DNA from: Candidatus Cloacimonadota bacterium
GTDB lineage: Bacteria; Cloacimonadota; Cloacimonadia; Cloacimonadales; Cloacimonadaceae
Direction of reading: 5' to 3'
Assembly: GCA_012728875.1 (NCBI GenBank)
Contig: JAAYEF010000031.1
Span: 124,001 to 188,000, forward strand
Length of the DNA: 64,000 nt
Shown here piece after piece: positions 12,294-61,949 of the stretch. Under the pieces are notes generated by a model. That model made no database searches. It saw nothing but the letters and a program-made list of their open reading frames with translations, and was not told where the DNA came from. A program made the translations under genes and the position numbers. The number at the start of each line of letters is the position of its first letter. The stretch's first letter is position 1.

Positions 12294-13403
12294 ATGGAAC
12301 AGGTTAAAACGCTTGTAATCGGGGCGGGAGCAGTGGGTTTGGCAGTTGCACGCGAACTTGCCCAGGATGATCCCGATCTGGTGCTTGTGGACAAGGAACC
12401 CAGTTTTGGCCGCCACACCAGCAGCAGAAACAGCGAAGTGATACACGCCGGTCATTATTATCAGCCGGGCTCGCTGAAGGCCAGGCTCTGCGCGGAAGGA
12501 AATTCGCTGCTCTATAACTTCCTGGAAAGCAACGCCCTTCCCCACAAAAAAACGGGTAAAATCATCGTTGCCACCAATGAAGCCGAGATCTCCGTGCTAA
12601 ACAAATATATGGAACTGGGAACGATAAACGGCGTCCCAGACATGCGCATGATGAGCAAGGCTGAAACCCAAGCCCTGGAACCGCGGGTGAAATGCGTTGC
12701 CGGGCTACATCTCCCCAGCACCGGCATCTTCGACACCCATGCCTTCATGCAGTGTTTGGAACAGCAGGCGGAAAAACTGGGCGCCTTTGTGGTTTACGGC
12801 ATGGAAGTGACACAGATCCAAAAGCAGGCGGATCGCTATCTGGTAAGTTTTACCAACGGCGATGTGTTTGAATGTGAGCAGGTGCTAAACTGTGCCGGAC
12901 TTTGGGCGGATCAAGTTGCACAAATGGCTGGCATCGATCTGCAAAGCTCCTCCCTGAAACAGCATTGGTGCAAGGGCGAATACTATAAAAGCACCAAAAT
13001 CAAGGATATCAAGCATTTGATCTATCCGGTTGCGGATCCCGCCGGCATTTTTCTGGGCATCCATCTCACCCTGAACCTGAATGGTGAGGTGAGATTTGGC
13101 CCCAACGCCTTCTATGTGGACCGCATCGACTACCAGTTCGAGGACAAATATTTGGAAGATTTCCATGTGTCCGTGAACCGCTATCTGGATGTGCCGCTTG
13201 TGGATTTGGAACCGGACGACACCGGCATCCGTGCCAAATTGCAGGGTCCCGAGGATGGCTTCCGGGATTTTTATATTCAGGAGGAATCATCCCACGGACT
13301 TTGTGGCTTGGTGAATTTGATTGGCATCGAATCCCCCGGCTTGACTGCCAGCCTGGCGATCGCGCGCCATGTGGCGGCTTTGTTGAAACTCAAGCGGGAT
13401 TAG
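12294..13403 (+). CDS. FAD-dependent oxidoreductase of the L-2-hydroxyglutarate oxidase (LhgO) family
   Basis: A 369-residue DAO-type flavoprotein. It begins with the dinucleotide-binding 'VIGAGAVGLAVARELA' and carries the LhgO-like 'SSRNSEVIHAGHYYQPGSLK', a motif of L-2-hydroxyglutarate dehydrogenases. The C-terminal 'GLVNLIGIESPGLTASLAIA' is also typical. It starts 3 bp after the nucleotidyltransferase stop, so it is in the same operon. Here it could oxidise a 2-hydroxy acid that decorates the glycan, or a sugar acid; a housekeeping role in 2-hydroxyglutarate repair is the alternative. Family clear, substrate not. Confidence 0.83.
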   Translation: MEQVKTLVIGAGAVGLAVARELAQDDPDLVLVDKEPSFGRHTSSRNSEVIHAGHYYQPGSLKARLCAEGNSLLYNFLESNALPHKKTGKIIVATNEAEISVLNKYMELGTINGVPDMRMMSKAETQALEPRVKCVAGLHLPSTGIFDTHAFMQCLEQQAEKLGAFVVYGMEVTQIQKQADRYLVSFTNGDVFECEQVLNCAGLWADQVAQMAGIDLQSSSLKQHWCKGEYYKSTKIKDIKHLIYPVADPAGIFLGIHLTLNLNGEVRFGPNAFYVDRIDYQFEDKYLEDFHVSVNRYLDVPLVDLEPDDTGIRAKLQGPEDGFRDFYIQEESSHGLCGLVNLIGIESPGLTASLAIARHVAALLKLKRD

Positions 13404-14774: not shown

Positions 14775-15929
14775 ATGCCATTGGTAAGAGATATAACTCA
14801 AAAACTCTATTTTTATGCCATTAATTTCAACAGAGCCTTATGTTATCATAGTATATTTCGCAAGATTTTGAAGGGTAAGCAGTTGCCGGATGTTAAGCCA
14901 GAGATAAGAAAGGACTACAAGACTTTATGGAAATCTATTGGAAGGAATCCCGGATCTTTGTTTCTCAAGTGTATGATTAGTATATCCGGGGTTGAATCTC
15001 CTTATTATGTGACAGACTATATATATTATACAGCCATAGAACCTATCCTTAACTACACATTATTTAGCTATCCTTATAACGACAAGAATTTTTATGAGCG
15101 CTATCTGAGCGAATATGCCGATCTGTTTCCACGTGTTTACCTTAGAGGGATGAACAGTTCTTTTTATGACAAAGACTACAAATGGTTAACTGACAAGGAA
15201 GCTGAAAAGATTATTTTGAATTTGAATCCTGATTACGAATACATTCTGAAACCGGCAACAGAATCGGGAGCCGGGAAAAACGTAAGTTTGCTCAAATTCA
15301 AGAACAACCTGGCTTACATTGATGGGGAAGAGATCAAGGTTTCGGATCTTCTAAATGGTTTACGACAGGGGATATACCATAATTTTGTGCTGCAAGAAAG
15401 GATTAAACAAAGCGATTGGTTTGGACATATTGGCTCTGATGCAACCAATATTATAAGAATTTTTACCTATAGATCGGTTAAGACGAACGAAGTCCACATA
15501 CTACACTCATATTTCAGGTATGCATATAAAAACGAAAAGTTTTTGCACTATTTAAAACACGGAGGTTTACGACAGGGAATCAGTCCCGAGGGTTTTCTGG
15601 ATGATTTCGCGATGGATTATTACGGGAACAAATTCAGCGCCACAGAACATGTGGATTTTTACAAGACTGCCAAAGTTCCCCACTATGAAAAGATGGTTGC
15701 ATTAGCCAGGGAAATTGGCAGCAAATATACATATCATCGCCTATTGGGGTTCGATTTTATTGTGGATTCAAACGAAGAGGTTAGGGTGCTGGAATTGAAT
15801 ACGCGTCAAATTGGCAGGCTTCACCACCAAATGATAGCCGGTCCCTTATTCGGCGAATTTACAAACGAGGTGGTCGAATATTGCCGTAACAACAAAAAAT
15901 CCCCATTTCTATACCCTTACTATAAATGA
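14775..15929 (+). CDS. sugar-transfer-associated ATP-grasp protein
   Basis: A 384-residue ATP-grasp ligase of the group found in exopolysaccharide loci. The central part has 'EYILKPATESGAGKNVSLLK' (nucleotide-binding lysine and flexible loop), 'FVLQERIKQSD', and 'LLGFDFIVDSNEEVRVLELN' with the Mg-binding Glu and Asn at the end of the fold. Such enzymes ligate a carboxylate to an amine and are presumed to add amino-acid-like groups to sugars. Start ATG with GGAG 9 bp upstream. It is followed closely by a GNAT acetyltransferase and an amino-acid racemase, and all three are AT-rich compared with flanking genes, which suggests acquisition as a cassette. Confidence 0.78.
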   Translation: MPLVRDITQKLYFYAINFNRALCYHSIFRKILKGKQLPDVKPEIRKDYKTLWKSIGRNPGSLFLKCMISISGVESPYYVTDYIYYTAIEPILNYTLFSYPYNDKNFYERYLSEYADLFPRVYLRGMNSSFYDKDYKWLTDKEAEKIILNLNPDYEYILKPATESGAGKNVSLLKFKNNLAYIDGEEIKVSDLLNGLRQGIYHNFVLQERIKQSDWFGHIGSDATNIIRIFTYRSVKTNEVHILHSYFRYAYKNEKFLHYLKHGGLRQGISPEGFLDDFAMDYYGNKFSATEHVDFYKTAKVPHYEKMVALAREIGSKYTYHRLLGFDFIVDSNEEVRVLELNTRQIGRLHHQMIAGPLFGEFTNEVVEYCRNNKKSPFLYPYYK

Positions 15930-15953
15930 CGTTGTCATAAGCAGGAATATATT

Positions 15954-16430
15954 ATGATTAGTATAAATCAGGTTGACACACTTGAGAGTCTTGAACGTTT
16001 CGTTGATCGCAGTGCTGTGGAATTATTCATTCACAATGAGATGAAACCGTTTCATGATCCGGTCTCGGCGATAAGCAAATCTTTGGACTACGCTTTTTCC
16101 AAAGACGAGGGGAAGGGTGGATATGTTCTTGTTGCCTTGGAAAACAATGTTTTGGTAGGCATCACAGTTGTAAACCAAAGTGGAATGGATGAATACATTC
16201 CCAGTGTTTTTTTGGTTTATATTGCCGTGAAGGAATCCCACAGGGGAAAAGGCTTAGGCAAGAGTATGATCAAGCGGGTGATTAAGAATTCGCCAAGCTC
16301 TATCGCCCTACATGTGGAATATGATAATCCTGCTAAAAAACTGTATGAGAATATTGGTTTTGTGTCAAAATATGCTGAAATGCGCTACGAAGGGGAGTTG
16401 GAAAATGGCAACAGTAAAAATCCATATTGA
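15954..16430 (+). CDS. GNAT-family N-acetyltransferase
   Basis: A 158-residue acetyl-CoA-dependent acyltransferase. The acetyl-CoA motif A is visible as 'VAVKESHRGKGLGKSMIKRV' and the C-terminal 'YDNPAKKLYENIGFVSKYAEM' is the usual motif B. It lies 24 bp after the ATP-grasp gene and overlaps the racemase start by 26 nt, so the three are translated together. It probably acetylates an amino acid or amino sugar of the same cassette. Substrate unknown. Confidence 0.85.
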   Translation: MISINQVDTLESLERFVDRSAVELFIHNEMKPFHDPVSAISKSLDYAFSKDEGKGGYVLVALENNVLVGITVVNQSGMDEYIPSVFLVYIAVKESHRGKGLGKSMIKRVIKNSPSSIALHVEYDNPAKKLYENIGFVSKYAEMRYEGELENGNSKNPY

Positions 16431-17478
16431 CAGAATATATGATAATATCGAGAAAATCCACGCTTTGATGGCAAAAAACGATAAAGAATGGTCGTTGGTA
16501 ATAAAATGTCTGGGCGGAGAGCGCGAGATAATTGCAATGGTGTTGGAACACCCGCTGATAAACAAAATCCACTCCATTTCGTCGACCCAGTGGCAAGAAT
16601 TGAAGCTGGTCAAGGAACTGCACAATAATTTGAGAACAATTGTGATCAGGCCAACCTTCGACAAATATGGCGGGGAAATCGTTGCAAACAGTGATATCTC
16701 TTTGGAAACCTCGCTTGCCACCATACAAAGCTTAAATTTCGATGCCAAAAAAGCAGAGAAAATTCACAATATCATTGTCATGATTGAAATGGGAGACCTG
16801 AGAGAAGGCATTAAAAGAGAGGGTTTGATCCCATTTTATAATAATATCTTTGAACTTGAAAACATCAAGATTGTAGGCATTGGAGCCAATCTTGGTTGTA
16901 TGTTTGGAGATTTACCCACTTACGATAAATTGTTGCATTTGGTGCTCTACGGTCAGCTCCTTGAGGCAAAATACAATCATAAAATGGAGCTGATTTCTGG
17001 AGGAACCTCCATAACACTTCCTCTCTTGGACACTGGAGAAGTGCCTCTTGGGGTCAATCATTTTCGGATTGGTGAAGCGGTGTTTTTGGGAACCACACCC
17101 TATACCGACAAAAGATATGCCAATCTTAATACAGATTGTTTTGAGTTTGAAGCCAATATACTGGAACTATACAGGAAAGAGAGCCTGCCAGAAAAAAATT
17201 TGCGGCTAAGCGCCAATAATGTCGCTGGTTCAGCTTCAACTGAACACGGCAGCTATAAGGCTCTTGTTGATTTTGGGAAAATTGACGTTGATCCCAGAAA
17301 CCTTATCTCAACTGATAAGAAAGTAAAGTTTTTTGGCAATAGTTCCGACCTGTCTGTTTACGACTTGGGAGAAAACACCCGGGGATATAATGTGGGGGAT
17401 GTGTTGACATTTAAATTGAAATATATGGGGCTTACCCGGTTAATGAACTCTAAATACATTGAAAAAACAATGCTATAA
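16405..17478 (+). CDS. PLP-dependent amino-acid racemase (alanine/ornithine racemase fold)
   Basis: A 357-residue alanine-racemase-fold enzyme. The PLP lysine is in 'WSLVIKCLGG' (about residue 34); 'IIVMIEMGDLREGI' and 'ELISGGTSITLPLL' are typical of the ornithine racemase (Orr)/YhfX branch, as is the C-terminal 'YNVGDVLTFKLKYMGLTRLMNS'. I moved the start from the track position to ATG 16405, which has AAGGGGAG upstream and begins 'MATVKIHIDRIYDNIEKI' as in the family. It should make a D-amino acid, most simply to be ligated onto the glycan by the neighbouring ATP-grasp protein. Confidence 0.82.
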   Translation: MATVKIHIDRIYDNIEKIHALMAKNDKEWSLVIKCLGGEREIIAMVLEHPLINKIHSISSTQWQELKLVKELHNNLRTIVIRPTFDKYGGEIVANSDISLETSLATIQSLNFDAKKAEKIHNIIVMIEMGDLREGIKREGLIPFYNNIFELENIKIVGIGANLGCMFGDLPTYDKLLHLVLYGQLLEAKYNHKMELISGGTSITLPLLDTGEVPLGVNHFRIGEAVFLGTTPYTDKRYANLNTDCFEFEANILELYRKESLPEKNLRLSANNVAGSASTEHGSYKALVDFGKIDVDPRNLISTDKKVKFFGNSSDLSVYDLGENTRGYNVGDVLTFKLKYMGLTRLMNSKYIEKTML

Positions 17479-20344: not shown

Positions 20345-21481
20345 ATGAATAATAAACCGGCAAGTTCGATATTTAATAATAGTGTTTATGATAGATTACT
20401 CTATGCTGTTCGAAAGTATACAGTGGGAAAATGGATAGCTGACTTTGTTTCTCTGCCTTTGATATTTTTTTCACAGGATTGGAAAAATGCCAAAAGATTT
20501 TCCCGGTACTGAGCCCAAAATGGATACAAAAACACTCTCTGGGACGCGATTCGGTCTCGTTTCAAGTATGGAAGCAGCTTGGAAAATTATTATAATTACA
20601 GGTTTTACGAACAAAAAGAAGTGGAGAGAGCTGCTTGGATAACCTACAGACACAGGATTTGTTTTTTCAGAAAGGTAAACCCTGCAAAATATAAGCATTT
20701 GGTAGACGACAAGGTCCAAGCCTCTCAATTTATGGCGGAATTTATCAAAAGGGACTTTTTTCCACTTTCCGATATTTCCGAGCTGGACGATGCCGTAGAT
20801 TGGATTCTACAACGTGACGAGGTGGTAGTCAAACCACGATTTGGAATGGATGGCAAGGGAGTTAGATTCATCAAATCCAGCCTGGGCAGGGACGCTTTGC
20901 GGCAATTTCTGAAAGATAGCTTGCAGACGGGCGCACAGACAATTGAAGAATTGATTGAACAGCATCCCCAAATGAGTGCCTTGCATGCTGATTCTGTCAA
21001 CACTTTGAGGATTCAAACCGTGTTGCACAACGATGAGGTGCACATTTTGGGAGCCGTGTTGCGCATTGGTAATGGAAGCAGGATTGACAACATGGTTTCA
21101 GGCGGCCTGGCTGCGGCGGTGGACATTGCCAGCGGTAAGGTGATGAGCGCCGGTTATTTTATGGATATCACAAAAGGATCCAGCCTCACAGAGCATCCGA
21201 TTACGGGGATCAGGATTCCCGGCTTTGAAATACCTTTCTGGCAGGAGACTTTGGATTTTGTGAGGCAGATGGCAACGCGTTTGCATATGTTAAAAGCATT
21301 AGGCTGGGATATTGCCATTTCATCCAAGGGTCCGGTATTGGTGGAATATAACCGTATATGGGGAACCACCACATTTCAGGTACCTTATAAAAAGGGGCGC
21401 CTGCAGGAATTGGCTCCCTTCATGGATCCCAACTGCCTTTACCCTGTACAGCGCAAACATCTTTCCGGATTAAAGAAGTGA
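20345..21481 (+). pseudogene. sugar-transfer-associated ATP-grasp gene interrupted by an in-frame TGA
   Basis: The track shows only 20579-21481, but the same frame reads back from ATG 20345 with one stop, TGA at 20510-20512. Before the stop it encodes 55 residues ending 'WKNAKRFSRY'; after it the frame continues 'AQNGYKNTLWDAIRSRFKYG', the normal N-terminal region of this family ahead of 'YYNYRFYEQKEVERAAW'. The ATP-grasp body follows: 'EVVVKPRFGMDGKGVRFI', 'NTLRIQTVL' and the C-terminal 'PVLVEYNRIWGTTTF'. It starts 24 bp after the flippase, with AAGGAG 14 bp upstream. Either a nonsense mutation, a sequencing error, or reinitiation (TTG 20579) giving a shortened enzyme. Confidence 0.7.
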
Positions 21482-21629: not shown

Positions 21630-22091
21630 ATGCAAGCCAGCCCAATAGGACACTATTTTGAGGAATTTCAAGCTGGTGATGTGATCAGGCATTCCGCCAG
21701 CAAGACCATTTTTGAAAGCGATAACAATCTCTTCAGTTTGCTCACCATGAACCATCATCCCTTGCACACGAACAAGGATTTTGCCGAAAAAAGCCAACAT
21801 GGGCAGATTTTGGTGGTGGGAACCTTGGTTTTCAGCATTGTGGTGGGAATGACGGTACCGGATATCAGTGGCAAGGCCATTGCCAATCTGGAATATGAGA
21901 AAGTGGAGCACCTGGGACCGGTGTTTATCAACGACACGCTCTGGGCTCAGACCGAGATTTTGGAAGCGAGACCGTCAAAATCCAAAGCTGACCGCGGCAT
22001 CATCCATGTGGAAACCACAGCCTTCAATCAGCATGACAAACCGGTGCTGAGATATCGTCGTCACGTGCTGATTGCCAGAAAAGGAGAATGA
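21630..22091 (+). CDS. MaoC-like (R)-enoyl-CoA hydratase/dehydratase
   Basis: A 153-residue hot-dog-fold enzyme. 'GHYFEEFQAGDVIRHSASKTI' is the typical MaoC opening, and 'FSLLTMNHHPLHTNKDFAEKSQHG' carries the catalytic-site pattern Asn-His with the following His of the hydratase motif. It hydrates or dehydrates an acyl-CoA thioester. Ribosome site TAGGAGG. The next gene, one base downstream of its stop, is a CitE-like CoA lyase; MaoC/CitE pairs are known from mesaconyl-/methylmalyl-CoA chemistry, so the two may act on one branched hydroxyacyl-CoA. Such a pair inside a polysaccharide locus is unusual. Confidence 0.85.
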   Translation: MQASPIGHYFEEFQAGDVIRHSASKTIFESDNNLFSLLTMNHHPLHTNKDFAEKSQHGQILVVGTLVFSIVVGMTVPDISGKAIANLEYEKVEHLGPVFINDTLWAQTEILEARPSKSKADRGIIHVETTAFNQHDKPVLRYRRHVLIARKGE

Positions 22092-22092
22092 G

Positions 22093-23001
22093 ATGAACGA
22101 AATCATCATGCGCAGCCTGATGTTTGTGCCGGGACACAACGAAAAACTGCTTGCCAGCGCTTCCAGATCCGACGCGGATGTGCTGCTGTTGGATCTCGAA
22201 GATTCCGTGCAGCCGGAAGCAAACAAACCCCTGGCACGCAAGACCATTGCGGAATGGGTCAGTTCCGGCAGGTTGAAAAACTATTATATCTTTCCCCGGG
22301 TGAACGACCGCGAGAGCGGCCACCTGATCAAAGATGTGCAGGCTCTCACCATACCAGGCATACACGGTTTCATGTATCCCAAATCCCGCACCGGCAAAGA
22401 CATATATTTTTTTGATAAACTGTTGGAAACAATTGAATATGAAAAAAAGATTCCGGTGGGCACGTTCAAGATCATCCCTTTGATCGAAACCAGCGGCGCG
22501 GTGTTGAACGCCCAGGATATCTGCCAGGCCTCAAAACGTGTGGTGGCAATTGCCTTTGGCTGTGAAGATTTTGTCAGCGATTTGCAGGGCATACACGATC
22601 ACGCAGGACAAAGCATCTTCACCCCCCGAGCCTTGATTGCGCTGGCTGCACGTGCCAACAACGTGATACCCATAGATACCGTCCATATCAACGTCCACGA
22701 TTTGGAAGACTTGGAACAAAACCTGATAATTGCCAAAAATATGGGCTTTGAAGGCATGCTGGTATTGCATCCCAAGGAACTGCCCCTGGTGCATCAATAT
22801 TTTTCACCCACCCAGCAGGAATATGACGACGCGGTGGATATGTTGCGGCTCTATGATGAATCGCAAAAAGAAGGAAAAGGTGTGGCTGTGAAAAACGGAA
22901 AATTCATCGGACCGCCCATGGTGATTGCAGCGAAAAAGATTTTGCAAAGGCATGATATGATTGACGCCAGGCAAAAAGCGCTTGGGCGCGAGCGGGAATG
23001 A
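22093..23001 (+). CDS. CitE-like HpcH/HpaI aldolase (CoA ester lyase)
   Basis: A 302-residue TIM-barrel lyase. The start at 22093 (AAAGGAG upstream, one base after the MaoC stop) gives the typical 'MRSLMFVPGHNEKLLASA', followed by 'ADVLLLDLEDSVQPEAN' (Mg-binding site), 'IPLIETSGAVLNA' and 'AIAFGCEDFVSDLQG'. Relatives cleave or form citramalyl-, malyl- or methylmalyl-CoA. It is joined to the following CapK-type gene by an ATGA overlap. Together with MaoC it may produce or consume a short hydroxyacyl-CoA used to acylate the glycan; this is inference from gene order. Confidence 0.87.
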   Translation: MNEIIMRSLMFVPGHNEKLLASASRSDADVLLLDLEDSVQPEANKPLARKTIAEWVSSGRLKNYYIFPRVNDRESGHLIKDVQALTIPGIHGFMYPKSRTGKDIYFFDKLLETIEYEKKIPVGTFKIIPLIETSGAVLNAQDICQASKRVVAIAFGCEDFVSDLQGIHDHAGQSIFTPRALIALAARANNVIPIDTVHINVHDLEDLEQNLIIAKNMGFEGMLVLHPKELPLVHQYFSPTQQEYDDAVDMLRLYDESQKEGKGVAVKNGKFIGPPMVIAAKKILQRHDMIDARQKALGRERE

Positions 23002-24284
23002 AACAGATGAAGTTGCCCAGCCACATCACACAGGCACCGGAAATCCTCCGCCAATTTATGTTTTACCAAAAGAGCCAACACTGGAGCCGGCAGCAGATTT
23101 TAGACTATCAAAATTCCAAACTCAAGGAAATAGTGGCTTATGCCGGAAAATATGTTCCCTATTACCGTAAACTGTTCCAGGACATAGAGCTGGATACAAG
23201 CTCCTTCAGGGGCATTGAAGATTTGGATAATATCCCGTTTTTGGACAAGGAAACGCTGCGCAGCAGACAGGAAGAATTCATCGCGGATACGGTTCACGAT
23301 TTGGACGCACGCGTGGAAAAAACCAGCGGTTCCACAGGCACACCTCTGCGTCTGATGATAGACAAACACAGCCGTGCAAATAAATATGCCGCCTACGCGC
23401 GCGCCTATCGTTGGGCAGGTTATAGCCCCGGTGCTCTGCGCTTTGTGGTCAAAGGGTTTTCCGAATCCAAATCCAAGGATTGGGGCTACGATGTTTTGCG
23501 GAATATGATTTACCTGAATTCAAGCAGGATGAATAAAGAGAACTGCCTGGAGGTGGCAAAGCTGGTGAGCAAGCTCAAACCATCGATATATGAAGGTTAT
23601 GCTCGAAGCTTCATCGATTTACACAACCAGATCAAAGATGAATGCAAGCTCTCTTCCCCCAGGGGAATTTTTGTGTATGGGGAAACGGTGACCCCGGGCA
23701 TCAGGGATCATGTGCAAAAGGTCTTCGGATCCCATCTCTTCGATTTTTACAGCCACGCCGAAAACTCCGTCATGATCTGTGAAAAACCGGATGGGCGCAG
23801 ATATTTGATGGAGGATTTCTTCTATCCTGAGCTTATCTGCGCAGAAGCAAAACCCGCGGAAGAAGGCTATGGTGAATTGGTGGGAACCAGTTTCTACAAC
23901 TATGCCATGCCTTTTATCCGCTACAAAACAAGGGATTATGTGAGGCTTGCCCCAGATCAGAGTAAAAACTTCCGGGAAGTGTTGAGTATCGAGGGCAGGA
24001 TGGATGATTATATTTTAATGCCCGACGGCAGAAAAATTTACTTTGCGGAAGGGGCACTTGGTTATGCTGAAGGGATTGTTGCGGCGCAATATATACAGGA
24101 TGAGACGGATCATCTGACTGTGAATCTGATTGTGGAAGAAGGTTTTTCCGCAAACAGCTATCCCCTGATCACGCAGGGCTTGGTTAAGAGACTGGGACCC
24201 AGTCTCAGATTCAGTTTTAAGATTGTTTCCGAATTGGAAAGGAAAGATTCCGGAAAAACACCCTTTATCATCAGAAAAATTTGA
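22998..24284 (+). CDS. PaaK/CapK-type adenylate-forming enzyme 1
   Basis: A 428-residue member of the phenylacetate-CoA ligase-like family found in capsule loci (CapK). The N-terminal 'WSRQQILDYQNSKLKEIVAYAGKYVPYYRKLF' and the phosphate-binding loop 'KTSGSTGTPLRLMID' are characteristic; 'FDFYSHAENSVMICE' is the position of the adenylate-binding YGxxE, here altered, and 'IRYKTRDYVRLAP' contains the ribose-binding Asp. It should activate a carboxylic acid as adenylate or CoA ester. Start overlaps the CitE stop (ATGA). The next gene is a paralogue with an almost identical C-terminal part. Confidence 0.85.
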   Translation: MKQMKLPSHITQAPEILRQFMFYQKSQHWSRQQILDYQNSKLKEIVAYAGKYVPYYRKLFQDIELDTSSFRGIEDLDNIPFLDKETLRSRQEEFIADTVHDLDARVEKTSGSTGTPLRLMIDKHSRANKYAAYARAYRWAGYSPGALRFVVKGFSESKSKDWGYDVLRNMIYLNSSRMNKENCLEVAKLVSKLKPSIYEGYARSFIDLHNQIKDECKLSSPRGIFVYGETVTPGIRDHVQKVFGSHLFDFYSHAENSVMICEKPDGRRYLMEDFFYPELICAEAKPAEEGYGELVGTSFYNYAMPFIRYKTRDYVRLAPDQSKNFREVLSIEGRMDDYILMPDGRKIYFAEGALGYAEGIVAAQYIQDETDHLTVNLIVEEGFSANSYPLITQGLVKRLGPSLRFSFKIVSELERKDSGKTPFIIRKI

Positions 24285-24295
24285 GCTCTCTTGAT

Positions 24296-25585
24296 ATGAA
24301 ACGAACCCTAACAGACGCCAGGCTATATGCTTACTGCTACTTATTTTACAAAAAGAGCATCCATTGGAGCCGTCAACAGGTAATCGACTACCACGACAAA
24401 AAACTCAAGGAAATGGTGCTCCATGCAGGCAGACATGTTCCCTATTACCGCAAGCTTTTTTCCGAGGCAGGCATAGACCCCGAGCGTTTCCGGGGTTTGG
24501 CAGACCTGGATAGGATACCTCTGTTGGACAAGGAAACCCTGCGCACCCGCCACAAAGAATTTGTGGCAGACAATGCGGATAAATATTATCCATTTTGGAG
24601 CAAGACCAGCGGTTCCACCGGCACCCCTCTGAATATCATGCTTGACCTGAGCAGCAAAAGGCACAAGCAGCGGGTGATAGCCCGTGCGGTTTACTGGGCA
24701 GGGGCAAAAAGAGGCGGCTGCATGTTCAAGCTCAAGGGATTGAGCGAATCCAAACCCAAGGATTACGATTATGAACCCAAGGAAAACCTTGTTTATTTGA
24801 ATTCCAGCCGTTTGACCAAAGAAAATTGTCTCGCAGCGGCAAAACTTATCCAACTTCATCAACCCCGCTTCTTTATTGGCTATGCCCGGTCTTTTGTTGA
24901 CTTCCATAAAACCATTACCGAAGCCGGTTTAAGCATCCCCAATCCGGTGGGCATATTGTGTGAGGGAGAAACTATAACGCCCGCCATCAGGGCCTACGTT
25001 GAAGAAGCCTATCAGACCCATATTTTTGATCAGTATGGAAACATTGAAGGTTCGGCGATGGCTTGCGAAATGCCTGACCACAAGCGCTATTTGATGGAGG
25101 ACTTTTTTCTGCCGGAATTGATTGACGCGGATGGCAAGGCAAGCGCAAACGGTTATGGAGAATTGGTGGGAACCAGTTTCCATAACTATGCCATGCCTTT
25201 TATTCGTTACAAAACAAGGGATTACGTGAAACTTGCCCCGGCTCAGGATAAAAACTTCCGGGAAGTGCTGGAAATCGAAGGCAGAATGGATGATTGTCTT
25301 TTAATGCCCGATGGCAGGAAAATATACTTTGCGGAAGGGGCGCTTGGTTATGCAGATGGGATTGTTGCGGCGCAATATATACAGGATGAGATAGACCACC
25401 TGACCGTGAATCTGATTGTGGATAGCCACTTTCAAAAGGATAGTTTCCAGCAGATTGAGGAAGGTCTTCGCAAAAGGATTGGAAACCAGATGCGCTTCAG
25501 TTTCAAGGTGGTGCCAGAGCTTGAGAAGAAAGGATCGGGGAAAACGGCTTTTATAATCAACAGGATACAACATAGCGACCTATGA
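24296..25585 (+). CDS. PaaK/CapK-type adenylate-forming enzyme 2
   Basis: Paralogue of the preceding gene (429 residues). 'WSRQQVIDYHDKKLKEMVLH', 'KTSGSTGTPLNIML', 'FDQYGNIEGSAMACE' (YGxxE intact here, unlike the first copy) and 'IRYKTRDYVKLAP' are present. From about residue 280 on, protein and DNA are nearly the same as in copy 1, whereas the first half is clearly more divergent, which points to duplication followed by gene conversion. The track start TTG 24281 overlaps the previous stop; ATG 24296 matches the N-terminus of copy 1 better. Substrate unknown. Confidence 0.85.
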   Translation: MKRTLTDARLYAYCYLFYKKSIHWSRQQVIDYHDKKLKEMVLHAGRHVPYYRKLFSEAGIDPERFRGLADLDRIPLLDKETLRTRHKEFVADNADKYYPFWSKTSGSTGTPLNIMLDLSSKRHKQRVIARAVYWAGAKRGGCMFKLKGLSESKPKDYDYEPKENLVYLNSSRLTKENCLAAAKLIQLHQPRFFIGYARSFVDFHKTITEAGLSIPNPVGILCEGETITPAIRAYVEEAYQTHIFDQYGNIEGSAMACEMPDHKRYLMEDFFLPELIDADGKASANGYGELVGTSFHNYAMPFIRYKTRDYVKLAPAQDKNFREVLEIEGRMDDCLLMPDGRKIYFAEGALGYADGIVAAQYIQDEIDHLTVNLIVDSHFQKDSFQQIEEGLRKRIGNQMRFSFKVVPELEKKGSGKTAFIINRIQHSDL

Positions 25586-25743
25586 AAAGAACACCAAAAA
25601 AATGGCAAGCCAGGGTTTGGCTGCTCCAAACTCAAGATGCGCACTTTCAATTTTTTTTTAACGAGACGCAGCAATCCTTTTTCTGCCATTGATGATGACA
25701 GCTATTTAGATAACGAAATAAAACACAATAATTCAAGGAGAAA

Positions 25744-26808
25744 ATGATGCCCAGGACGTTAGGATTCCTTTCGATGCGCTTCGAAGAAGAAGAAAAAAGA
25801 GATTTTCGCCCCGGGTTTTTTGCTAAATTACGAGATTTACCAAATCCTGTTTTTTTAGAAGAGACTTATGGAAAAAAACTTGGCTATATTCCTGAAGACT
25901 ATCTACAGGTAAACTCAAAAATACAATTTCTTCCACGCGATGAGGTCTGGAAGTCGGACATCGTGATTAGCGTGCGCACACCACCAGAAGATGAACTGAA
26001 GGCTTTAAAACGAGGGTCAATCTTTTTTTCAATGTTGCATTATCCAACTCGCAGGAAAAGGACGACCATGCTTGCGGATATGGGGGTAAGGCTATATTCA
26101 ATGGATGCGGTTACAGACGAATTTGGTCACAGGATGATCCAAGACTTTTCGGGAACGGTGAATAACGCATTGGTCAAAGGCATGGAGGTTCTTGACAGGC
26201 AAAAACCCCATCTTGAAAAAATCAGGGTGCTGATTCTGGGTTCTGGAGAGCTGGGCAAACTGGCTGTCGACCATGCTATTCACGCTTCACAAAAACCCGT
26301 GATAGCTGTGTCGGTGGGCAGAAAGATCACTGGTAATCAAGCCCTGATAAAAGAATTGCTCCAAGAATCAGACATTTTGATAGATGCAACTTTCAGGAAT
26401 GACCCAAGACAGCATATTTTGGAAAATGAGCAAATTGGTCATTTGCCCCCTGACTCCATAATAATTGACATTAGCGCTGATGACTACGATGTTAATATGG
26501 ACCCCATTCAAGTGAAAGCTATTGAGGGAATACCCACTGGAAACTTGGGTAGATATATTCTTGCACCAGACGATGTCTCTTATGAGAAAATTCCTCCACA
26601 AGTGTGCAGCAAAGAGAGAAGAACGGTGGTTAGCTGTAATGCTTGGCCTGGCGTTAATCCCCATGCCTGTTTGGACAGATATGAGATTCAAGTGGAACAC
26701 TTTATCAGAATTATGGCGGTCAAGGCTTACGACCTGGATCCAAGTTCCAGCGACCCTTATGAAAGAGCCCTGCACAGAGCCAAAAATAATGAGAAACATC
26801 GATTATAA
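25744..26808 (+). CDS. alanine dehydrogenase / PNT N-terminal family protein
   Basis: A 354-residue NAD(P)-dependent enzyme. The N-terminal half resembles the AlaDH/PNT substrate domain ('VFLEETYGKKLGYIPEDYL', 'SDIVISVRTPPEDELKALK'), and a Rossmann motif 'VLILGSGELGKLAVDHA' follows near residue 160. Members include alanine dehydrogenase, saccharopine dehydrogenase-like proteins and N5-(carboxyethyl)ornithine synthase; the length and the modified Rossmann loop fit the last group as well as the first. In this locus it may make an amino acid or N-carboxyalkyl amino acid for glycan decoration. AAGGAG precedes two adjacent ATGs (25744 and 25747). A 158-bp gap upstream holds nothing clear. Confidence 0.65.
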   Translation: MMPRTLGFLSMRFEEEEKRDFRPGFFAKLRDLPNPVFLEETYGKKLGYIPEDYLQVNSKIQFLPRDEVWKSDIVISVRTPPEDELKALKRGSIFFSMLHYPTRRKRTTMLADMGVRLYSMDAVTDEFGHRMIQDFSGTVNNALVKGMEVLDRQKPHLEKIRVLILGSGELGKLAVDHAIHASQKPVIAVSVGRKITGNQALIKELLQESDILIDATFRNDPRQHILENEQIGHLPPDSIIIDISADDYDVNMDPIQVKAIEGIPTGNLGRYILAPDDVSYEKIPPQVCSKERRTVVSCNAWPGVNPHACLDRYEIQVEHFIRIMAVKAYDLDPSSSDPYERALHRAKNNEKHRL

Positions 26809-27093: not shown

Positions 27094-28032
27094 GTGAGTA
27101 AATTATATGATGGTCTGGGTCTATCTGTTGTAATCCCTGTTTACAATGATGAAACAGTGCTCCCTGAGCTTTTTAACCGTTTGCTGCCAGCTTTGGAAAA
27201 AATCACCAATAAATTTGAAGTAATCCTGGTGGATGACGGAAGCAGAGACAACTCATATCAGGTCATGAGGGAGTTGAAGCAAGTTCATGAGCAACTGGTT
27301 TTGATCAAGCTAACCCGCAATTTTGGCCAGTCCAATGCCATAACAGCAGGATTGGACAACGCCTCAAACGAGTATATAGCAATAATGGACTCTGATTTGC
27401 AAGATCCGCCGGAGTTTTTGCAAGACCTTCTGCATGCATGCATAAGCAGTGGCAAAGATATGGCAATTGCCAGACGGATCACCAGAAAGGACAGTTGGTT
27501 CAAAAAGACCGCATCCAAGATTTTCAATAAGATTTCTTTTTGGGCAACCACAATCAGCATAGAGCCCGGCATGGGGGTGTATCGAGTTATGACCAAAAAA
27601 TCGTTTGACAAGATCAAAGACGTGCAGGAAATAACCGGAACAACATTAAGTCTCATGTATTGGAGTGGGTTCAGTTATGAGGCTGTTGACATGAACCGGG
27701 ATCAAAGATTTGCCGGCAAAAGCGGTTATACAACCCGAAAAATGTTCCGCCTGGCCATGGATCGGATTTTCTCTTACTCTCTATGGCCTTTACGATTTGC
27801 CACCATGTTGGGATTTGTAGTGGCATTACTGAGTTTTATTGCCGGTTTGATGATCATCATCAGAAGGCTTTTCTTTTTTGTATCGGTTCCAGGTTGGGCA
27901 TCCAGCATGGTTTTGATTCTGTTTATGTTTGGCCTGAACTTCATCATTATGGGCATGATGGGCGAGTATCTTGGAAGAATATACCTGGAAACAAAACAAA
28001 GGCCCAAATATGTCATTGAGGAGAAGATATGA
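27094..28032 (+). CDS. family-2 glycosyltransferase, GtrB/ArnC/DPM-like, membrane-anchored
   Basis: A 312-residue polyprenyl-phosphate sugar transferase type. GT-A motifs are 'SVVIPVYNDETVLPE' at residue 11, 'VILVDDGSRDNS', and the DxD with the hallmark 'DSDLQDPPE' (99-107). Two C-terminal transmembrane helices follow ('FATMLGFVVALLSFIAGLMI' and 'SMVLILFMFGLNFIIMG'). Such enzymes load a sugar from a nucleotide onto undecaprenyl phosphate. GTG start with GGAGAAAG upstream. Its stop overlaps the next ATG (ATGA), linking it to the NeuD-like acetyltransferase. Confidence 0.88.
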   Translation: MSKLYDGLGLSVVIPVYNDETVLPELFNRLLPALEKITNKFEVILVDDGSRDNSYQVMRELKQVHEQLVLIKLTRNFGQSNAITAGLDNASNEYIAIMDSDLQDPPEFLQDLLHACISSGKDMAIARRITRKDSWFKKTASKIFNKISFWATTISIEPGMGVYRVMTKKSFDKIKDVQEITGTTLSLMYWSGFSYEAVDMNRDQRFAGKSGYTTRKMFRLAMDRIFSYSLWPLRFATMLGFVVALLSFIAGLMIIIRRLFFFVSVPGWASSMVLILFMFGLNFIIMGMMGEYLGRIYLETKQRPKYVIEEKI

Positions 28033-28688
28033 AGGAAAAAATCATCATCATAGGTGGCAAAGGCTCGGCAGTGGTGCTGGCTGAGCAGATCCTCCATGCT
28101 GTTCAGAATTTCAACGCCGATTATGAGTTGCTGGGTTTTTGCATTGATGATCCACTGTTGGGAAGCGAGATCGCCGGTTTCCCCATATTATGCAAACGTG
28201 ATGAACTGACCCAACGGTATAACGCATATTCAGACGTAAAGTATTTCTTTGCCCTTTATAAACCGACCTGCATGGAAGAGAGAGTTCAGTTGTTTCAGGA
28301 TATGGAGCTTCCCAGAGATAAATTCACCAATTTCATACACCCCCTCTCCTATGTGGCCCGAAGTGTGAAAATGGGTGTGGGCAATGTGATTTGTTCAAAC
28401 GTTACCGTTAATTGCAATGCTACAATGGGAGACTACAATACTTTAAACGGCAATGTGCTCTTTGGCCATGATTCAAGCTTGGGAAATTGCAATATATTGG
28501 CAGGAAGCGTCACCATCAGCTCGGAAATTGAAATAGGCAATGGGAATTTTATCGGGTTGAATTCCACTATTCGAGACAGGGTAAAGATCGGGGATTTTTC
28601 AATCATCGGAATGGCCTCAACAGTTCTTCACGACGTGGCTTCCCGCACAACTGTAGTCGGTTCCCCTGCCAAACAGGTAATAAAATGA
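28029..28688 (+). CDS. NeuD/PglD-like sugar O- or N-acetyltransferase (LbH)
   Basis: A 219-residue protein with an N-terminal PglD-type Rossmann-like part ('KIIIIGGKGSAVVLAEQI'-like opening) and a C-terminal left-handed beta-helix built of hexapeptide repeats ('VICSNVTVNCNATMGDYNTL', 'IGNGNFIGLNSTI'). It ends in 'VGSPAKQVIK', the usual tail. It transfers an acetyl group from acetyl-CoA to an amino sugar or sugar hydroxyl. It overlaps both neighbours by 4 nt, so it belongs with the GT2 and the aminotransferase-like gene. Confidence 0.85.
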   Translation: MKEKIIIIGGKGSAVVLAEQILHAVQNFNADYELLGFCIDDPLLGSEIAGFPILCKRDELTQRYNAYSDVKYFFALYKPTCMEERVQLFQDMELPRDKFTNFIHPLSYVARSVKMGVGNVICSNVTVNCNATMGDYNTLNGNVLFGHDSSLGNCNILAGSVTISSEIEIGNGNFIGLNSTIRDRVKIGDFSIIGMASTVLHDVASRTTVVGSPAKQVIK

Positions 28689-29626
28689 TCATTGCTCAAA
28701 GAGCAAGCGCGATTCTTTATCGGTATCTGAGATCATATCCGGATGGATGTTTTATCCTGCCCGCAAATATCTGCCCGATCGTTCCCCTGACCTTTCATAA
28801 AGCGGGAGTTCAATTCGAATTTTTCGATATCAGCCAGGAAGACCTGTGCCTTGACGAAACAGCCGTCCTGGATGCTATAAATGCGAGGCCGGGACACTAC
28901 ACAGGAGTGCTGTTCAATCATAGCTATGGTGTGCAAATAGACAAGGCGCCGTTTTTTTCCAGGATTGCATCGTTGGATCCAAGCATCAGCATCATAGCGG
29001 ATCGCTGCCTTTGCTACCCAGATTTTGGACCTCCTGCCCCAAATGTGAGCATGGAACTATACAGCAGCGGAGCCAAGAAGGCAGTGGATATAGGCTGGGG
29101 CGGTTACGCCAAGACTGCCGATCATGTTCTTTTGGATATCCCTGCCACTCACTTTGATCCAGTTTCCGAAAAAAAAATAGAAGCTCAAATCAGGATTGCA
29201 GTCGAGCAAAAGATGCCGCTTGAGATTGATGATGAAAATTGGCTGAATACCGACATTCCTGATTGCAGGTTTGCGGATTATCAAGCTCAAATCGAGGCAT
29301 CGATGCAGACCGCCATTTCACATCGGAGCATAATTAATAAAATCTATGATGAGTATTTACCCGACCACATTAAAATGGCTGTCGGATACCAAAATTGGCG
29401 ATACAACATCGTAACAGAAGTTAAAGACAAGATATTGCAAACACTTTTTGGCAATCGCCTCTTTGCAAGTTCACATTATCTGTCTGCCAACGTACTTTTT
29501 AGGGATCAGAAGGAATTTCCGAACACAACAAATCTCAGTAAGCAAGTGATAAACCTGTTCAATGATTTTCATATAACAGAGCATCAGGCTAAACTTGCAT
29601 GCAAACTAATTTTGGAATTGCTTTGA
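28685..29626 (+). CDS. short DegT-like PLP-fold protein
   Basis: A 313-residue protein related to sugar aminotransferases but about 60-70 residues shorter. 'FILPANICPIVPLTFHKAGVQFEFFDI' matches the DegT region around the second strand, and 'SSGAKKAVDIGWGGYAK' occupies the PLP-lysine position with a candidate Schiff-base Lys. It lacks the usual N-terminal substrate-lid region and the 'GT-A-L' phosphate cup of DegT enzymes. It may be a specialised aminotransferase or an inactive relative. Overlaps the NeuD-like gene by 4 nt and is followed after 52 bp by the LUD gene. Confidence 0.6.
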   Translation: MIIAQRASAILYRYLRSYPDGCFILPANICPIVPLTFHKAGVQFEFFDISQEDLCLDETAVLDAINARPGHYTGVLFNHSYGVQIDKAPFFSRIASLDPSISIIADRCLCYPDFGPPAPNVSMELYSSGAKKAVDIGWGGYAKTADHVLLDIPATHFDPVSEKKIEAQIRIAVEQKMPLEIDDENWLNTDIPDCRFADYQAQIEASMQTAISHRSIINKIYDEYLPDHIKMAVGYQNWRYNIVTEVKDKILQTLFGNRLFASSHYLSANVLFRDQKEFPNTTNLSKQVINLFNDFHITEHQAKLACKLILELL

Positions 29627-29678: not shown

Positions 29679-30464
29679 ATGAAGACCGTGGACGAACTTG
29701 ATTTTTCTGCTGAAACCCAGAAACTTTTTGAAATTAAAGCAGGGGCTATCAAGCGTACATTTGAGCAGCGCCGGATACAAACCCAATTGCTTGATGATGA
29801 AGAGGCTGTAAAGGCTTTCATCACAGAGTTTATTGCCAAGCGCCCAGAGATAAAAAGCATTGCATTCAGCGATGGCGTAACTTTGTATCAGTTGGACCTG
29901 TTCAATTGGATCCAAAAACAGTATGGCCCCAAAGGATTCATGATAAACCAACCATTGGAAAGGTCTGAAACCGGCCAATATGCCATATTTGGTGAGCAGC
30001 CACCGGGCAGGATGAATATCCCTTATAATGAGTGGAAGATACTATATGACAAATGGTATGACAATCTGAGGATGTCTTTGCTGAGCGATTTGTTGATCGT
30101 AAGCGCTAATGCGGTTACCATGAACGGAGAGATAATTTCAGTGGATGGGCTTGGCAACAGGGTGTCCGGCATGATTTTTGGTCCCCGTCATGTGCTTTGC
30201 ATCGTTGGGCGCAACAAGATCGTGAATGACCAGGCAAGTGCTTTGGACAGGATCCACAATCATGTGGTTCCGCTCACTTATCTGAGGCACAACCTTAAGC
30301 ACTGGTGCAAATTTGAGGATGTGCCTTGCCTTAAGATTGGCAAATGCGTAAAATGCAGCCATCCTGAGAGCTCATGCCTCAACACCGTGGTAGTCAGGGG
30401 TCAGGTTAAGCAGCATCAAGATAGATTGCACCTGATCATAGTCAACCAGGATTTGGGTTTTTGA
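29679..30464 (+). CDS. LUD-domain protein (LutC/DUF162 type)
   Basis: A 261-residue LUD protein. The core 'LLSDLLIVSANAVTMNGEIISVDGLGNRVS' and 'VLCIVGRNKIVNDQASALDRI' are diagnostic, and the C-terminal cysteine cluster 'CLKIGKCVKCSHPESSC' is usual for stand-alone LUD proteins of anaerobes. Family members take part in lactate utilisation with iron-sulfur partners (LutAB), but no LutA/LutB is present here, and the flanking genes are for sugar modification. AAGGAAGG-type ribosome site before ATG 29679. Role here unknown. Confidence 0.82.
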   Translation: MKTVDELDFSAETQKLFEIKAGAIKRTFEQRRIQTQLLDDEEAVKAFITEFIAKRPEIKSIAFSDGVTLYQLDLFNWIQKQYGPKGFMINQPLERSETGQYAIFGEQPPGRMNIPYNEWKILYDKWYDNLRMSLLSDLLIVSANAVTMNGEIISVDGLGNRVSGMIFGPRHVLCIVGRNKIVNDQASALDRIHNHVVPLTYLRHNLKHWCKFEDVPCLKIGKCVKCSHPESSCLNTVVVRGQVKQHQDRLHLIIVNQDLGF

Positions 30465-31701: not shown

Positions 31702-32853
31702 ATGAACATACCTTTTAATATACCCTACGCTACCGAACAGGAAATCCGGTATGCCACCCAAGCCTTGAAATCCGGACGCCTGTGTGGCAACAATCAATTT
31801 GCCAAGCGGGTTCAGGCGCACTTGGCAGAGAAACATGGCTTGCAGAATGCGTTTTTAGTTCCGTCCGGGACAGCCGCGCTTGAAATGGGAGCCTGGCTTG
31901 CAGGTTTGCAGCCCGGCGACGAGGTGATCCTGCCTTCCTACACTTTCAGTTCCACAGCCAATGCGGTGGTGCTGACCGGAGCCAAACCGGTTTTTTGCGA
32001 GATTGACCCCAAAACCATGAATGCGGATCCTGAGCATATCCGGGAGCTCATTACCCCAAAAACCAGGATGCTTTTGCCCATCGACTATGCCGGTATTCCC
32101 TGCGACATGGAAAGTATTGTATCCATCGCGCAGGAGCATGGATTGATCGTGATGGTGGACGCCGCGCAATCTTATGGCAGCCGTTATCAGGGAAAGGCTT
32201 GCGGGAGCCTGGGCGACCTTGCCACCTTCAGTTTCCACGAGACCAAGAATATCAGTTGCGGAGAAGGCGGAGCCTTGATGGTGAACCGTGAAGACTGGCT
32301 GCAGCGGGCAAGTTTTCTGCAGGAAAAGGGAACAGACCGCAGCTTGGTGCTGTATGGTCAAAAAACGAAGTATCACTGGGTGGATATCGGCTCCAGCTAT
32401 CTTCTTTCCGACATTTTGGCTGGCGTGCTGCTGGCGCAGTTGGAATGTGAAGACCGGATTTTGGAGCTGCGCGGCAAAGTGACTGCCGCTTATCTGGAAT
32501 TTTGGAAGCCCTACGCGGAAAAGGGCATGGTTCAAATTGCTCCTTACGGGCAATATGAGAAACTGAACAGCCATGCTTTCTGGGTGGTGTTCGATTCTGA
32601 AACAAACAAGGAAAAATTCCTGTTGGGCCTCAAGGAAAGGGGGGTGTATGCCTATATAGGCTATATGCCTCTGCACTCGGCTCCCATGGGTCAGAAACTG
32701 GGTTACAAGCCTCAGGATCTGCCCCGTACCCAGGAGATTGCCGCCAGAATCGTGAGACTGCCGCTGTATGCGGAATTGGCAAACGACGGTTTGGATTACG
32801 CTCTGGGAAGCATGGAACTGGTATTGGAAACCATATACGGTGACAAAAGATAA
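31702..32853 (+). CDS. wecE: dTDP-4-amino-4,6-dideoxyhexose transaminase (WecE-like)
   Basis: A 383-residue DegT-family aminotransferase. 'NIPYATEQEIRYATQALKSGRLCGN' and the PLP-lysine context 'SFHETKNISCGEGGAL' (Lys about 182) are the signature of the RffA/WecE branch, which aminates C4 of a dTDP-4-keto-6-deoxyhexose using glutamate. Length is normal. The next gene, an EvaA-like 2,3-dehydratase, begins inside its last codons, and a Gfo/Idh reductase follows. In that company its substrate could be the 2-deoxy version of the usual sugar, giving dTDP-4-amino-2,4,6-trideoxyhexose; this last step is inference. Confidence 0.88.
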   Translation: MNIPFNIPYATEQEIRYATQALKSGRLCGNNQFAKRVQAHLAEKHGLQNAFLVPSGTAALEMGAWLAGLQPGDEVILPSYTFSSTANAVVLTGAKPVFCEIDPKTMNADPEHIRELITPKTRMLLPIDYAGIPCDMESIVSIAQEHGLIVMVDAAQSYGSRYQGKACGSLGDLATFSFHETKNISCGEGGALMVNREDWLQRASFLQEKGTDRSLVLYGQKTKYHWVDIGSSYLLSDILAGVLLAQLECEDRILELRGKVTAAYLEFWKPYAEKGMVQIAPYGQYEKLNSHAFWVVFDSETNKEKFLLGLKERGVYAYIGYMPLHSAPMGQKLGYKPQDLPRTQEIAARIVRLPLYAELANDGLDYALGSMELVLETIYGDKR

Positions 32854-35371: not shown

Positions 35372-37108
35372 GTGAAAACAAAGAACACACATTATTGGCT
35401 GTTTTGGCTGCTCTGCCTGGGAATCATCCTTGTTTCCTATTCCTCCTATTTTATTTGGGGTAGCAAATCCTTTTTATCGGTTGGGGATGGGCTGGATAGC
35501 AATCATGTCCAAAATTTGATGTCCGCTGAAAAGTCCTGGCGCTTCGGGGAGGGTGAACCCAGCGAATCCATCAAGGTTGCCGCCGATCCCGGTGTGGTGG
35601 GCTTTGTTAAAAAAATACCGGGTCCCCAAAAAGCTCTCTATATTTTTTTCCAACCCTATTATGCCGACGTGATCAATCGCGTCTTAATCAGCCTGATTGG
35701 CTTTTTGGGAATGTTGCTTCTATTGAGCGCAATGTACCCCCGAAGCAGGTATCCCGGTCTGGAATTTGAGGTCATCAGGTTTGGGGTCGCGCTGGCATTT
35801 GGGCTGCTAAAATTCTGGCCTTACGCGGGCATTAGCGTTTCCGGACTCCCTTTGATCTTTTGGGCATATTTGAGCGTCGATCGCCATAAGCTTTGGGCTT
35901 TCCTCACAGCGGTTGTTTATGCCTATTATTCTTCCCTGGCGCTGGTGGGTGTCTTCCTTCTTATCGCCTTGGGAATCTCTGAACTTTGGCTTTGGATTAA
36001 AAAAAGGGGAAGCTGGAGGCGGGTGCTTTGGATTGCTTTCCTCACCTTGGTATACGTGCTGGCAAATATCAGTTTGGTGATGAGCGCCCTGGCGCCTAAG
36101 GTGGCCAGCCATCGCAGTGGCTTCAGCGCGGTGGGCTTTTTTGCGGATAACCAGCAAACCGTCCTGAATTTTTTGCGCATGTTTTTTTCAAACTATGGAC
36201 ACAACGCCAGCTATCCCTGGCTCATCATTCCCTTGGGTTTATTGGCACTCTTGCTGGCTTTCAAGGGTAAGTCTCCTGAAAAACGCAAGCATTTGATCCT
36301 GCTTGGAGCATATACGATTTTGGCTTTGGCTGGCGCGATATTTGGCAACAGATACATTTACTCCCTGCAGAGCAGGATACCGCTGTTGAAAATGTTTCAG
36401 CTTCAACGTTTCTTCTGGCTGCTGCCCTTGCTGCAATACCTGATCTTCGCGAGTTCTCTGGTGATAGTTGCCAAAACCAGGCTCAAAAAAGCGATTTATC
36501 CTCTCCTGCTGGTGCAGATCGGAATTTTGGCGTTTTATGTGAATTATAACACCAAGCAATGTGTGAAGAGCTATGTATTGAACAAACCGGTTTCCCCGCC
36601 AAGTTATGAGGAGTTCTACAGCCCTGCGCTTTACCGGGGAATTCAGCGACAGATCGGTCGACCCACCACTGAATACAGGGTGGCATCTCTGGGCTTGAAT
36701 CCAGCGGCAGCATTGTACAACGGTTTCTACACTGTGGATGGATATTTTTCCGGTGGTTACCCTTTGGAGCACAAACAGAACTTTGGCAAAGCCATCGAGG
36801 GTGAACTTGAAAAGAATGAACATTTGGCAACTCTATTTTATAACTGGGGCAGCACCTGCTATCTGTTTTCAGATGAGATTGACCGTTATTATGGATATAA
36901 TGGAAATGGTATCCCCATGATTGATAAACACGAGGAAAGGAGCATCGAATATCTCGCCATTGATACTGCCAGTCTGAGGGACATGGATTGCGAGTATATC
37001 TTTTCCGCCCTGCCAATCTCCCAAGCCGGTGAATTGGGACTTAACTATGTTGCCAGCTATGAACATAGCTCTTCTCCCTACAGAATCTATCTGTATTCGA
37101 TTGAATAA
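35372..37108 (+). CDS. multi-pass membrane protein, DUF6044/GT-C-like
   Basis: A 578-residue integral membrane protein with about ten hydrophobic helices in the first 410 residues, then a soluble C-terminal part. The N-terminal extracytoplasmic loop has 'VGDGLDSNHVQNLMSAEKSW', resembling DUF6044/YfhO-like proteins and acidic loops of GT-C glycosyltransferases. It may transfer a sugar from a lipid carrier on the outer face of the membrane, adding a side branch. GTG start with AAGGA upstream. Assigned from topology and one motif only. Confidence 0.5.
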   Translation: MKTKNTHYWLFWLLCLGIILVSYSSYFIWGSKSFLSVGDGLDSNHVQNLMSAEKSWRFGEGEPSESIKVAADPGVVGFVKKIPGPQKALYIFFQPYYADVINRVLISLIGFLGMLLLLSAMYPRSRYPGLEFEVIRFGVALAFGLLKFWPYAGISVSGLPLIFWAYLSVDRHKLWAFLTAVVYAYYSSLALVGVFLLIALGISELWLWIKKRGSWRRVLWIAFLTLVYVLANISLVMSALAPKVASHRSGFSAVGFFADNQQTVLNFLRMFFSNYGHNASYPWLIIPLGLLALLLAFKGKSPEKRKHLILLGAYTILALAGAIFGNRYIYSLQSRIPLLKMFQLQRFFWLLPLLQYLIFASSLVIVAKTRLKKAIYPLLLVQIGILAFYVNYNTKQCVKSYVLNKPVSPPSYEEFYSPALYRGIQRQIGRPTTEYRVASLGLNPAAALYNGFYTVDGYFSGGYPLEHKQNFGKAIEGELEKNEHLATLFYNWGSTCYLFSDEIDRYYGYNGNGIPMIDKHEERSIEYLAIDTASLRDMDCEYIFSALPISQAGELGLNYVASYEHSSSPYRIYLYSIE

Positions 37109-61916: not shown

Positions 61917-61949
61917 ACGGATCAAACGGATATAACGGATCAAACGGAT
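61917..61949 (+). repeat. left 9-bp repeat array of GxxExxY module 3
   Basis: ACGGAT occurs four times at exactly 9-bp spacing (61917, 61926, 61935, 61944) with 3-bp spacers CAA, ATA, CAA. The last unit contributes the first two bases of the GxxExxY start codon (ACGG-ATG). The inverted partner is at 62348-62380. Confidence 0.85.

Follow-up and report, generated by a model that had tools for sequence, protein, structure and literature searches.

N-acylated sugars can be supplied from hydroxyacyl-CoA: the antA enoyl-CoA hydratase of the anthrose operon feeds an N-acyl group in this way, and 3-hydroxybutyryl groups are found on Qui4N and Pse. A different hydratase is encoded in the RipB/RipC (itaconyl-CoA hydratase and citramalyl-CoA lyase) and Ich/Ccl systems, in which a MaoC gene is paired with a CitE-like gene. 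The lid Asp of such lyases is conserved across the CitE-like superfamily and the malate synthases, with the malyl-CoA thioesterase group, which carries Glu, as the exception (PMC3832036). On the glycan side, N-linked 4-malyl, 2-hydroxyglutaryl and 3-hydroxybutyryl groups occur on bacterial amino sugars, and glycans with N-malyl, 2-hydroxyglutaryl or 3-hydroxy-3-methylbutyryl groups have been described from Pseudoalteromonas rubra, Vibrio vulnificus, Shewanella and Tenacibaculum (Flexibacter) maritimus (PMC3210612).

The locus analysed here lies in a stretch of 64,000 nucleotides (the window) of contig JAAYEF010000031.1 from a Candidatus Cloacimonadota bacterium. The original prediction had placed five genes in it, coding for a MaoC-like hydratase, a CitE-like lyase, two CapK adenylate-forming enzymes and an AlaDH-family enzyme, and had read them as one pathway for an unusual acyl decoration of a sugar. 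All five open reading frames were confirmed on the plus strand (Table 1), as was the tight packing of the first four. The start of the CitE-like gene is given as TTG 22072 in the list of open reading frames; an ATG preceded by AAAGGAG is the likelier start and lies one base behind the MaoC stop codon, and four-base overlaps join CitE to CapK1 and CapK1 to CapK2. The AlaDH-like gene stands apart, with gaps of 158 bp before and 285 bp after it. Glycan genes flank the run on both sides, coding for nucleotidyltransferases, ATP-grasp proteins, a flippase, an ArnC-like GT2, NeuD, DegT and an NDP-hexose 2,3-dehydratase.

Table 1. Genes of the run and recurrent partners in the window
Feature	Position	Strand	Evidence
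MaoC-like hydratase, RipB/Ich - mesaconyl-CoA hydratase type (Asn41/His46)	21630..22091	+	PF01575 9e-20; NCBIfam RipB_Ich 127 bits
CitE-like protein with Gly-lid (FIGPP)	22093..23001	+	PF03328 2e-39
CapK1, PaaK-like adenylate-forming enzyme, core motifs intact	22998..24284	+	NCBIfam/PDB PaaK relatives
CapK2, tandem paralogue of CapK1 (58% identity)	24281..25585	+	NCBIfam/PDB PaaK relatives
AlaDH/PNT N-domain (AlaDh_PNT_N) oxidoreductase	25744..26808	+	PF05222 6e-14
ArnC-like polyprenyl-phosphate glycosyltransferase (GT2), recurrent partner	27094..28032	+	found in 18/47 loci
NeuD/PglD-type sugar N-acyltransferase, recurrent partner (36/47 loci)	28029..28688	+	TIGR03570 145 bits, just below the cut-off of 160.8
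Protein of unassigned family, PLP-aminotransferase-like by eye	28685..29626	+	no Pfam or NCBIfam match; adjoins NeuD in L021, L031 and L052
DegT/DnrJ sugar aminotransferase, recurrent partner (family in 26/47 loci)	31702..32853	+	PF01041 2e-84
Membrane protein with DUF6044, possibly a glycosyltransferase; recurs as a partner in Cloacimonadota	35372..37108	+	PF19510 1.5e-124

The MaoC gene is the sole copy in its 2.17-Mb genome. Among solved structures its best relatives are MaoC 4e3e and the beta-methylmalyl-CoA dehydratase 8hgn, and the nearest of these act on mesaconyl- or beta-methylmalyl-CoA. Judged by sequence, the protein is of the RipB/Ich/mesaconyl-CoA hydratase kind: it has the Asn..His signature and is paired with a CitE-like protein, with a score of 127 bits that lies below the curated RipB/Ich cut-off of 340 (NF038241). 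Asn41 is found in 51 of 52 relatives and His46 in all 52. The signature, TMNxHPxH, is common to six of seven catabolic MaoC relatives, while the seventh (L064) reads TFNPAQLH. The missing canonical catalytic Asp was considered as a peculiarity of this MaoC and rejected; since Asn41 is common to RipB-like catabolic MaoCs, it is a mark of the subfamily and not a defect. In catabolic clusters the RipB-like relatives adjoin CoA ester lyases and CoA-transferases. The window resembles RipB/RipC and Ich/Ccl in the gene pair and in the Asn/His signature, but differs in its glycan-synthesis context, and no CoA-transferase (RipA) was recognised in the part of it examined.

When genome contigs were scanned with the CitE protein, 40 loci with 51-79% identity among the sequences aligned were obtained, 39 bacterial and one archaeal, from ten named phyla (Bacteroidota, Cloacimonadota, Delongbacteria, Calditrichota, Omnitrophota, Electryoneota, Verrucomicrobiota, Bacillota, Actinomycetota and, for the archaeon, Woesearchaeota). 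Nearly all of these genomes are metagenome-assembled, so that phyla with a single member could reflect mis-binning. Neighbours were re-annotated by profile search with the window proteins and cluster representatives, and the CitE-scan loci together with ten longer Cloacimonadota regions gave 47 usable loci. In 39 of these 47, which span ten named phyla and two domains, the MaoC gene immediately precedes CitE. This and the other neighbour counts overstate the number of independent loci, because closely related Cloacimonadota contribute and the same or near-identical genomes recur (L059 and L113). Nearly all loci with the pair are glycan loci, and the identity matrices of the two proteins are correlated (r 0.73, Mantel p 0.0005, 40 pairs). 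These data support the view that MaoC and CitE form one conserved functional unit tied to glycan loci, and they contradict, for this pair, a chance adjacency of central-metabolism genes. Of 125 Cloacimonadota genomes, about 23 lie above the score gap and are counted as carriers of the CitE family with the Gly lid described below. In Bacteroidia, only one of 395 sampled genomes matched at E <= 1e-85, and this was the seed itself; the genes are thus rare there. Such a patchy distribution would fit horizontal transfer among phyla. Culturable carriers of the pair are Sunxiuqinia elliptica, Maribacter luteus and Maribacter antarcticus.

The AlphaFold model of the CitE-like protein (pLDDT 93; TM 0.88 to human CLYBL) retains the fold of CLYBL and malyl-CoA lyase including the C-terminal lid. 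In HMMER alignments E132 and D159 match the Mg ligands (E141 and D168) and R69 matches Arg76 of Rhodobacter sphaeroides malyl-CoA lyase, and all three are invariant in 57 sequences. Malyl-CoA lyase, human CLYBL and Rv2498c share this predicted fold, these Mg ligands and this Arg. Unlike in these enzymes, position 229 is Glu instead of Gln, and G273 aligns ungapped with the catalytic Asp299 of malyl-CoA lyase. The lid position is Gly in all 55 family sequences that reach this column. The Asp is retained in citrate lyase CitE, in two catabolic CoA ester lyases and in the ~400-aa CitE relatives that Cloacimonadota themselves encode; the lyases near RipB-like catabolic MaoCs likewise have Asp, except for a Glu in one (Tistrella). 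In a quick tree with long reference branches, the Gly-lid proteins group as a single clade (SH-aLRT 94), and the nearest named relatives of the window protein are from Cloacimonadota. Across the family E229 never varies, and H198 and H234 hardly do. Of the original prediction of a hydratase with a CoA lyase, the linkage of the two genes with one another and with glycan loci stands, but the absent lid Asp was missed. Because malyl- and citramalyl-CoA lyases use this residue, the name CoA lyase cannot be assumed and C-C bond chemistry is not assured. The new residues are invariant across phyla, which would suggest changed function and not decay. We prefer, over a loss of function, a remodelled condensing or cleaving enzyme that may use another proton carrier, with E229, H198 and H234 as candidates.

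A catabolic RipBC cluster, converting itaconate or citramalate to acetyl-CoA and pyruvate and lying in a glycan locus by chance, is very improbable. The sequences are indeed related to the RipB/RipC and CitE families, but the NCBIfam cut-offs for RipB, RipC and CitE are all missed (for the CitE-like protein 113 vs 375 bits with RipC/Ccl NF038242 and 187 vs 443 bits with CitE TIGR01588). In addition, the lid Asp is absent from all members with that column, no CoA-transferase was recognised in the part of the window examined, and the glycan neighbours recur across phyla. The separate Cloacimonadota relative, in which the Asp is present and which lacks an adjoining MaoC gene, also speaks against this reading.

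CapK1 and CapK2 are PaaK-like by NCBIfam and PDB relatives, with no Pfam match. The PaaK/CapK core motifs (phosphate loop, Arg-Asp motif and C-terminal Lys) are present, in CapK1 as SGSTGTP, RYKTRD, GRxDD and a C-terminal GK. A CapK gene lies directly downstream of CitE in 16 of the 47 loci. The proteins at this place belong to two distant subfamilies, with 33-58% and about 17-21% identity to CapK1, respectively, and both retain the adenylation core motifs in the sequences shown. In one Cloacimonadota locus (L021) the CitE is 79% identical to that of the window, yet the CapK is of the other subfamily (~19% identity). CapK is hence a lineage-dependent partner with swapped subfamily, and its place in the module, as originally proposed, is upheld only for some lineages. 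A further tandem CapK-like pair, 20-26% identical to CapK1 and CapK2, is found downstream in the window at 44943-47642.

The position of CapK also bears on a reading of the Gly-lid protein as a thioesterase or acyl-CoA handler: MaoC would hydrate an enoyl-CoA, CitE would release or edit the acid and CapK would re-activate it for amide formation. The CapK genes adjoining CitE in 16 loci suit hydrolysis followed by re-activation, the only published lid exception, the Glu of malyl-CoA thioesterases, likewise changes function (PMC3832036), and some loci hold a second CitE-like protein (CitE2) whose lid residue is Glu or Thr, four of six lacking the Arg69 equivalent. We regard this reading as unlikely, as the thioesterases carry Glu and not Gly, and in most loci no CapK directly follows CitE, which would leave the freed acid without an evident activating enzyme. 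CitE2 itself lies beside the pair in L031:333-1193, L035:8665-9510, L050:8729-9547, L055:8689-9528, L022:4130-4948 and L032:4277-5095 and is absent from the window; a mixed oligomer of CitE2 and CitE with shared active sites is conceivable.

The fifth gene was rejected as a member of the module. AlaDH was found in none of 97 relatives (one of 98 genomes overall), and the window protein gave no match in the 40 CitE-scan loci. A homologue with 39% identity occurs in Acetoanaerobium, where the neighbouring open reading frames, read without annotation, place it outside a glycan locus. Related loci hold at this site PGA_cap (CapA-type) and LPG_synthase_TM proteins or, in part of the Cloacimonadota, a NadA paralogue. 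One could still imagine all five genes in a single pathway, for instance with AlaDH producing an acyl group of the amino-acid or opine type that CapK then activates; the shared strand and order and the occupation of the NadA or PGA_cap site might be cited in its favour. Given the missing matches and the gaps on both sides of the gene we find this improbable, and AlaDH is most likely unrelated to the module. Of the five families whose co-occurrence had been proposed as a check, MaoC and CitE are therefore conserved together, CapK is so in part, and AlaDH drops out.

Among the neighbours, a NeuD-type acyltransferase lies within 9 kb of CitE in 36 of the 47 loci and directly downstream in 13, a DegT1-type aminotransferase occurs in at least 26, and the ArnC-like GT2 in 18. 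An aminotransferase together with an N-acyltransferase, as in pathways to N-acylated amino sugars, is present in the window as DegT and NeuD. Some loci without a downstream NeuD (L046, L049 and L051) have an Antibiotic_NAT N-acyltransferase (PF02522) instead, and in four (L023, L041, L050 and L055) CitE lies in sialic or pseudaminic acid-type loci with NeuB, PseG and PseF homologues, as named from reading of the sequences. In Cloacimonadota a block of the order MaoC-CitE-CapK-NadA-LPG_synthase_TM-GT2-NeuD-WbqC-DegT-DUF6044 recurs, some copies being truncated or one gene short. The identities of NeuD and CitE correlate weakly, with r 0.44 for neighbouring genes and 0.05 where NeuD is distal, so that NeuD may act on a different sugar; a role of NeuD in the acyl transfer is less secure for this reason.

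Gene order, recurrence, pairing, residues and predicted fold are the observed basis of the pathway that we propose. MaoC and the Gly-lid CitE would derive from a RipB/RipC (Ich/Ccl) hydratase-lyase pair recruited to surface-glycan clusters. From their relatives we infer short acyl-CoAs with an additional carboxylate, of the malyl, citramalyl, mesaconyl or fumaryl class, as the compounds that the two enzymes interconvert. The DegT aminotransferase would make an amino sugar whose amino group receives the acyl, with NeuD as the likely transferase, and in the window the ArnC-like GT2 might then load the sugar onto polyprenyl phosphate. In lineages with CapK, activation of the free acid, to a CoA ester or an adenylate, could fall to CapK1 and CapK2. 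That such a RipB/RipC-derived pair runs in the direction of supply, providing a short carboxylated acyl-CoA for amino-sugar N-acylation with the help of CapK in some lineages, appears somewhat probable to us. The sugar decoration foreseen by the original prediction fits the aminotransferase and N-acyltransferase neighbours, but without AlaDH and with only a partial role for CapK. As in the antA-type supply, a hydratase in a glycan operon would feed an N-acyl group; the MaoC-type hydratase and CitE-type protein differ from it and point to dicarboxylic acyls. The acyl kinds known from bacterial glycans (PMC3210612) include ones the pair could make, and 4-malyl has the regiochemistry of malyl-CoA, a likeness at the level of acyl type.

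The Gly-lid pair probably makes an unusual acyl decoration via putatively altered chemistry. More tentatively, the lid-Asp-free CitE branch with MaoC may represent a new acyl-CoA chemistry and a surface-glycan acyl decoration not seen before, spread horizontally, for which the NadA paralogue in a Cloacimonadota operon of up to ten genes hints at an acyl group of heteroaromatic or unusual dicarboxylic type. In the open-access literature searched, with the terms used, we found no link of MaoC-CitE to an O-antigen, polysaccharide or glycan pathway and no described pathway joining pseudaminic acid with MaoC, and nothing relevant on citramalyl in glycans among the matches listed. A term search of the papers on the Flavobacterium psychrophilum R-group genes gave no mention of MaoC, hydratase or citrate lyase. 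For the pair, this agrees with the earlier statement that no glycan pathway with this set is described. While acyl-CoA supply for N-acylated glycans is known, this pair and its enzyme chemistry are possibly new. We know of no organism with the pair for which a glycan structure or an enzyme assay has been described. If the proposal is right, an acyl-CoA route would be added to glycan biosynthesis, the catalytic rule stated for the CitE-like superfamily would no longer hold, and a gene marker would be at hand for glycans bearing a so-far-unidentified acyl group.

Several other features of these loci were observed. The NadA of the Cloacimonadota block (L111:7855, L114:7312, L118:10987, L057, L059 and L060) is a second paralogue of quinolinate synthase that retains nearly all residues invariant in housekeeping copies, and another NadA copy was found elsewhere in six of the genomes searched. 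In the window, two sugar-transfer-associated ATP-grasp proteins are encoded at 14775-17478 and 20579-21481; a GNAT and an alanine-racemase-like protein adjoin the first, and amino-acid decoration is possible. An FAD oxidoreductase of the DAO family lies amid sugar-nucleotide genes at 12294-13403 and is present in L021 too, and a LUD-domain protein within the glycan locus (29679-30464) has matches in L032, L037 and L054. Finally, two mutually similar small proteins, possibly of the GxxExxY type as judged by eye, are encoded at 59852-60247 and 61948-62343.
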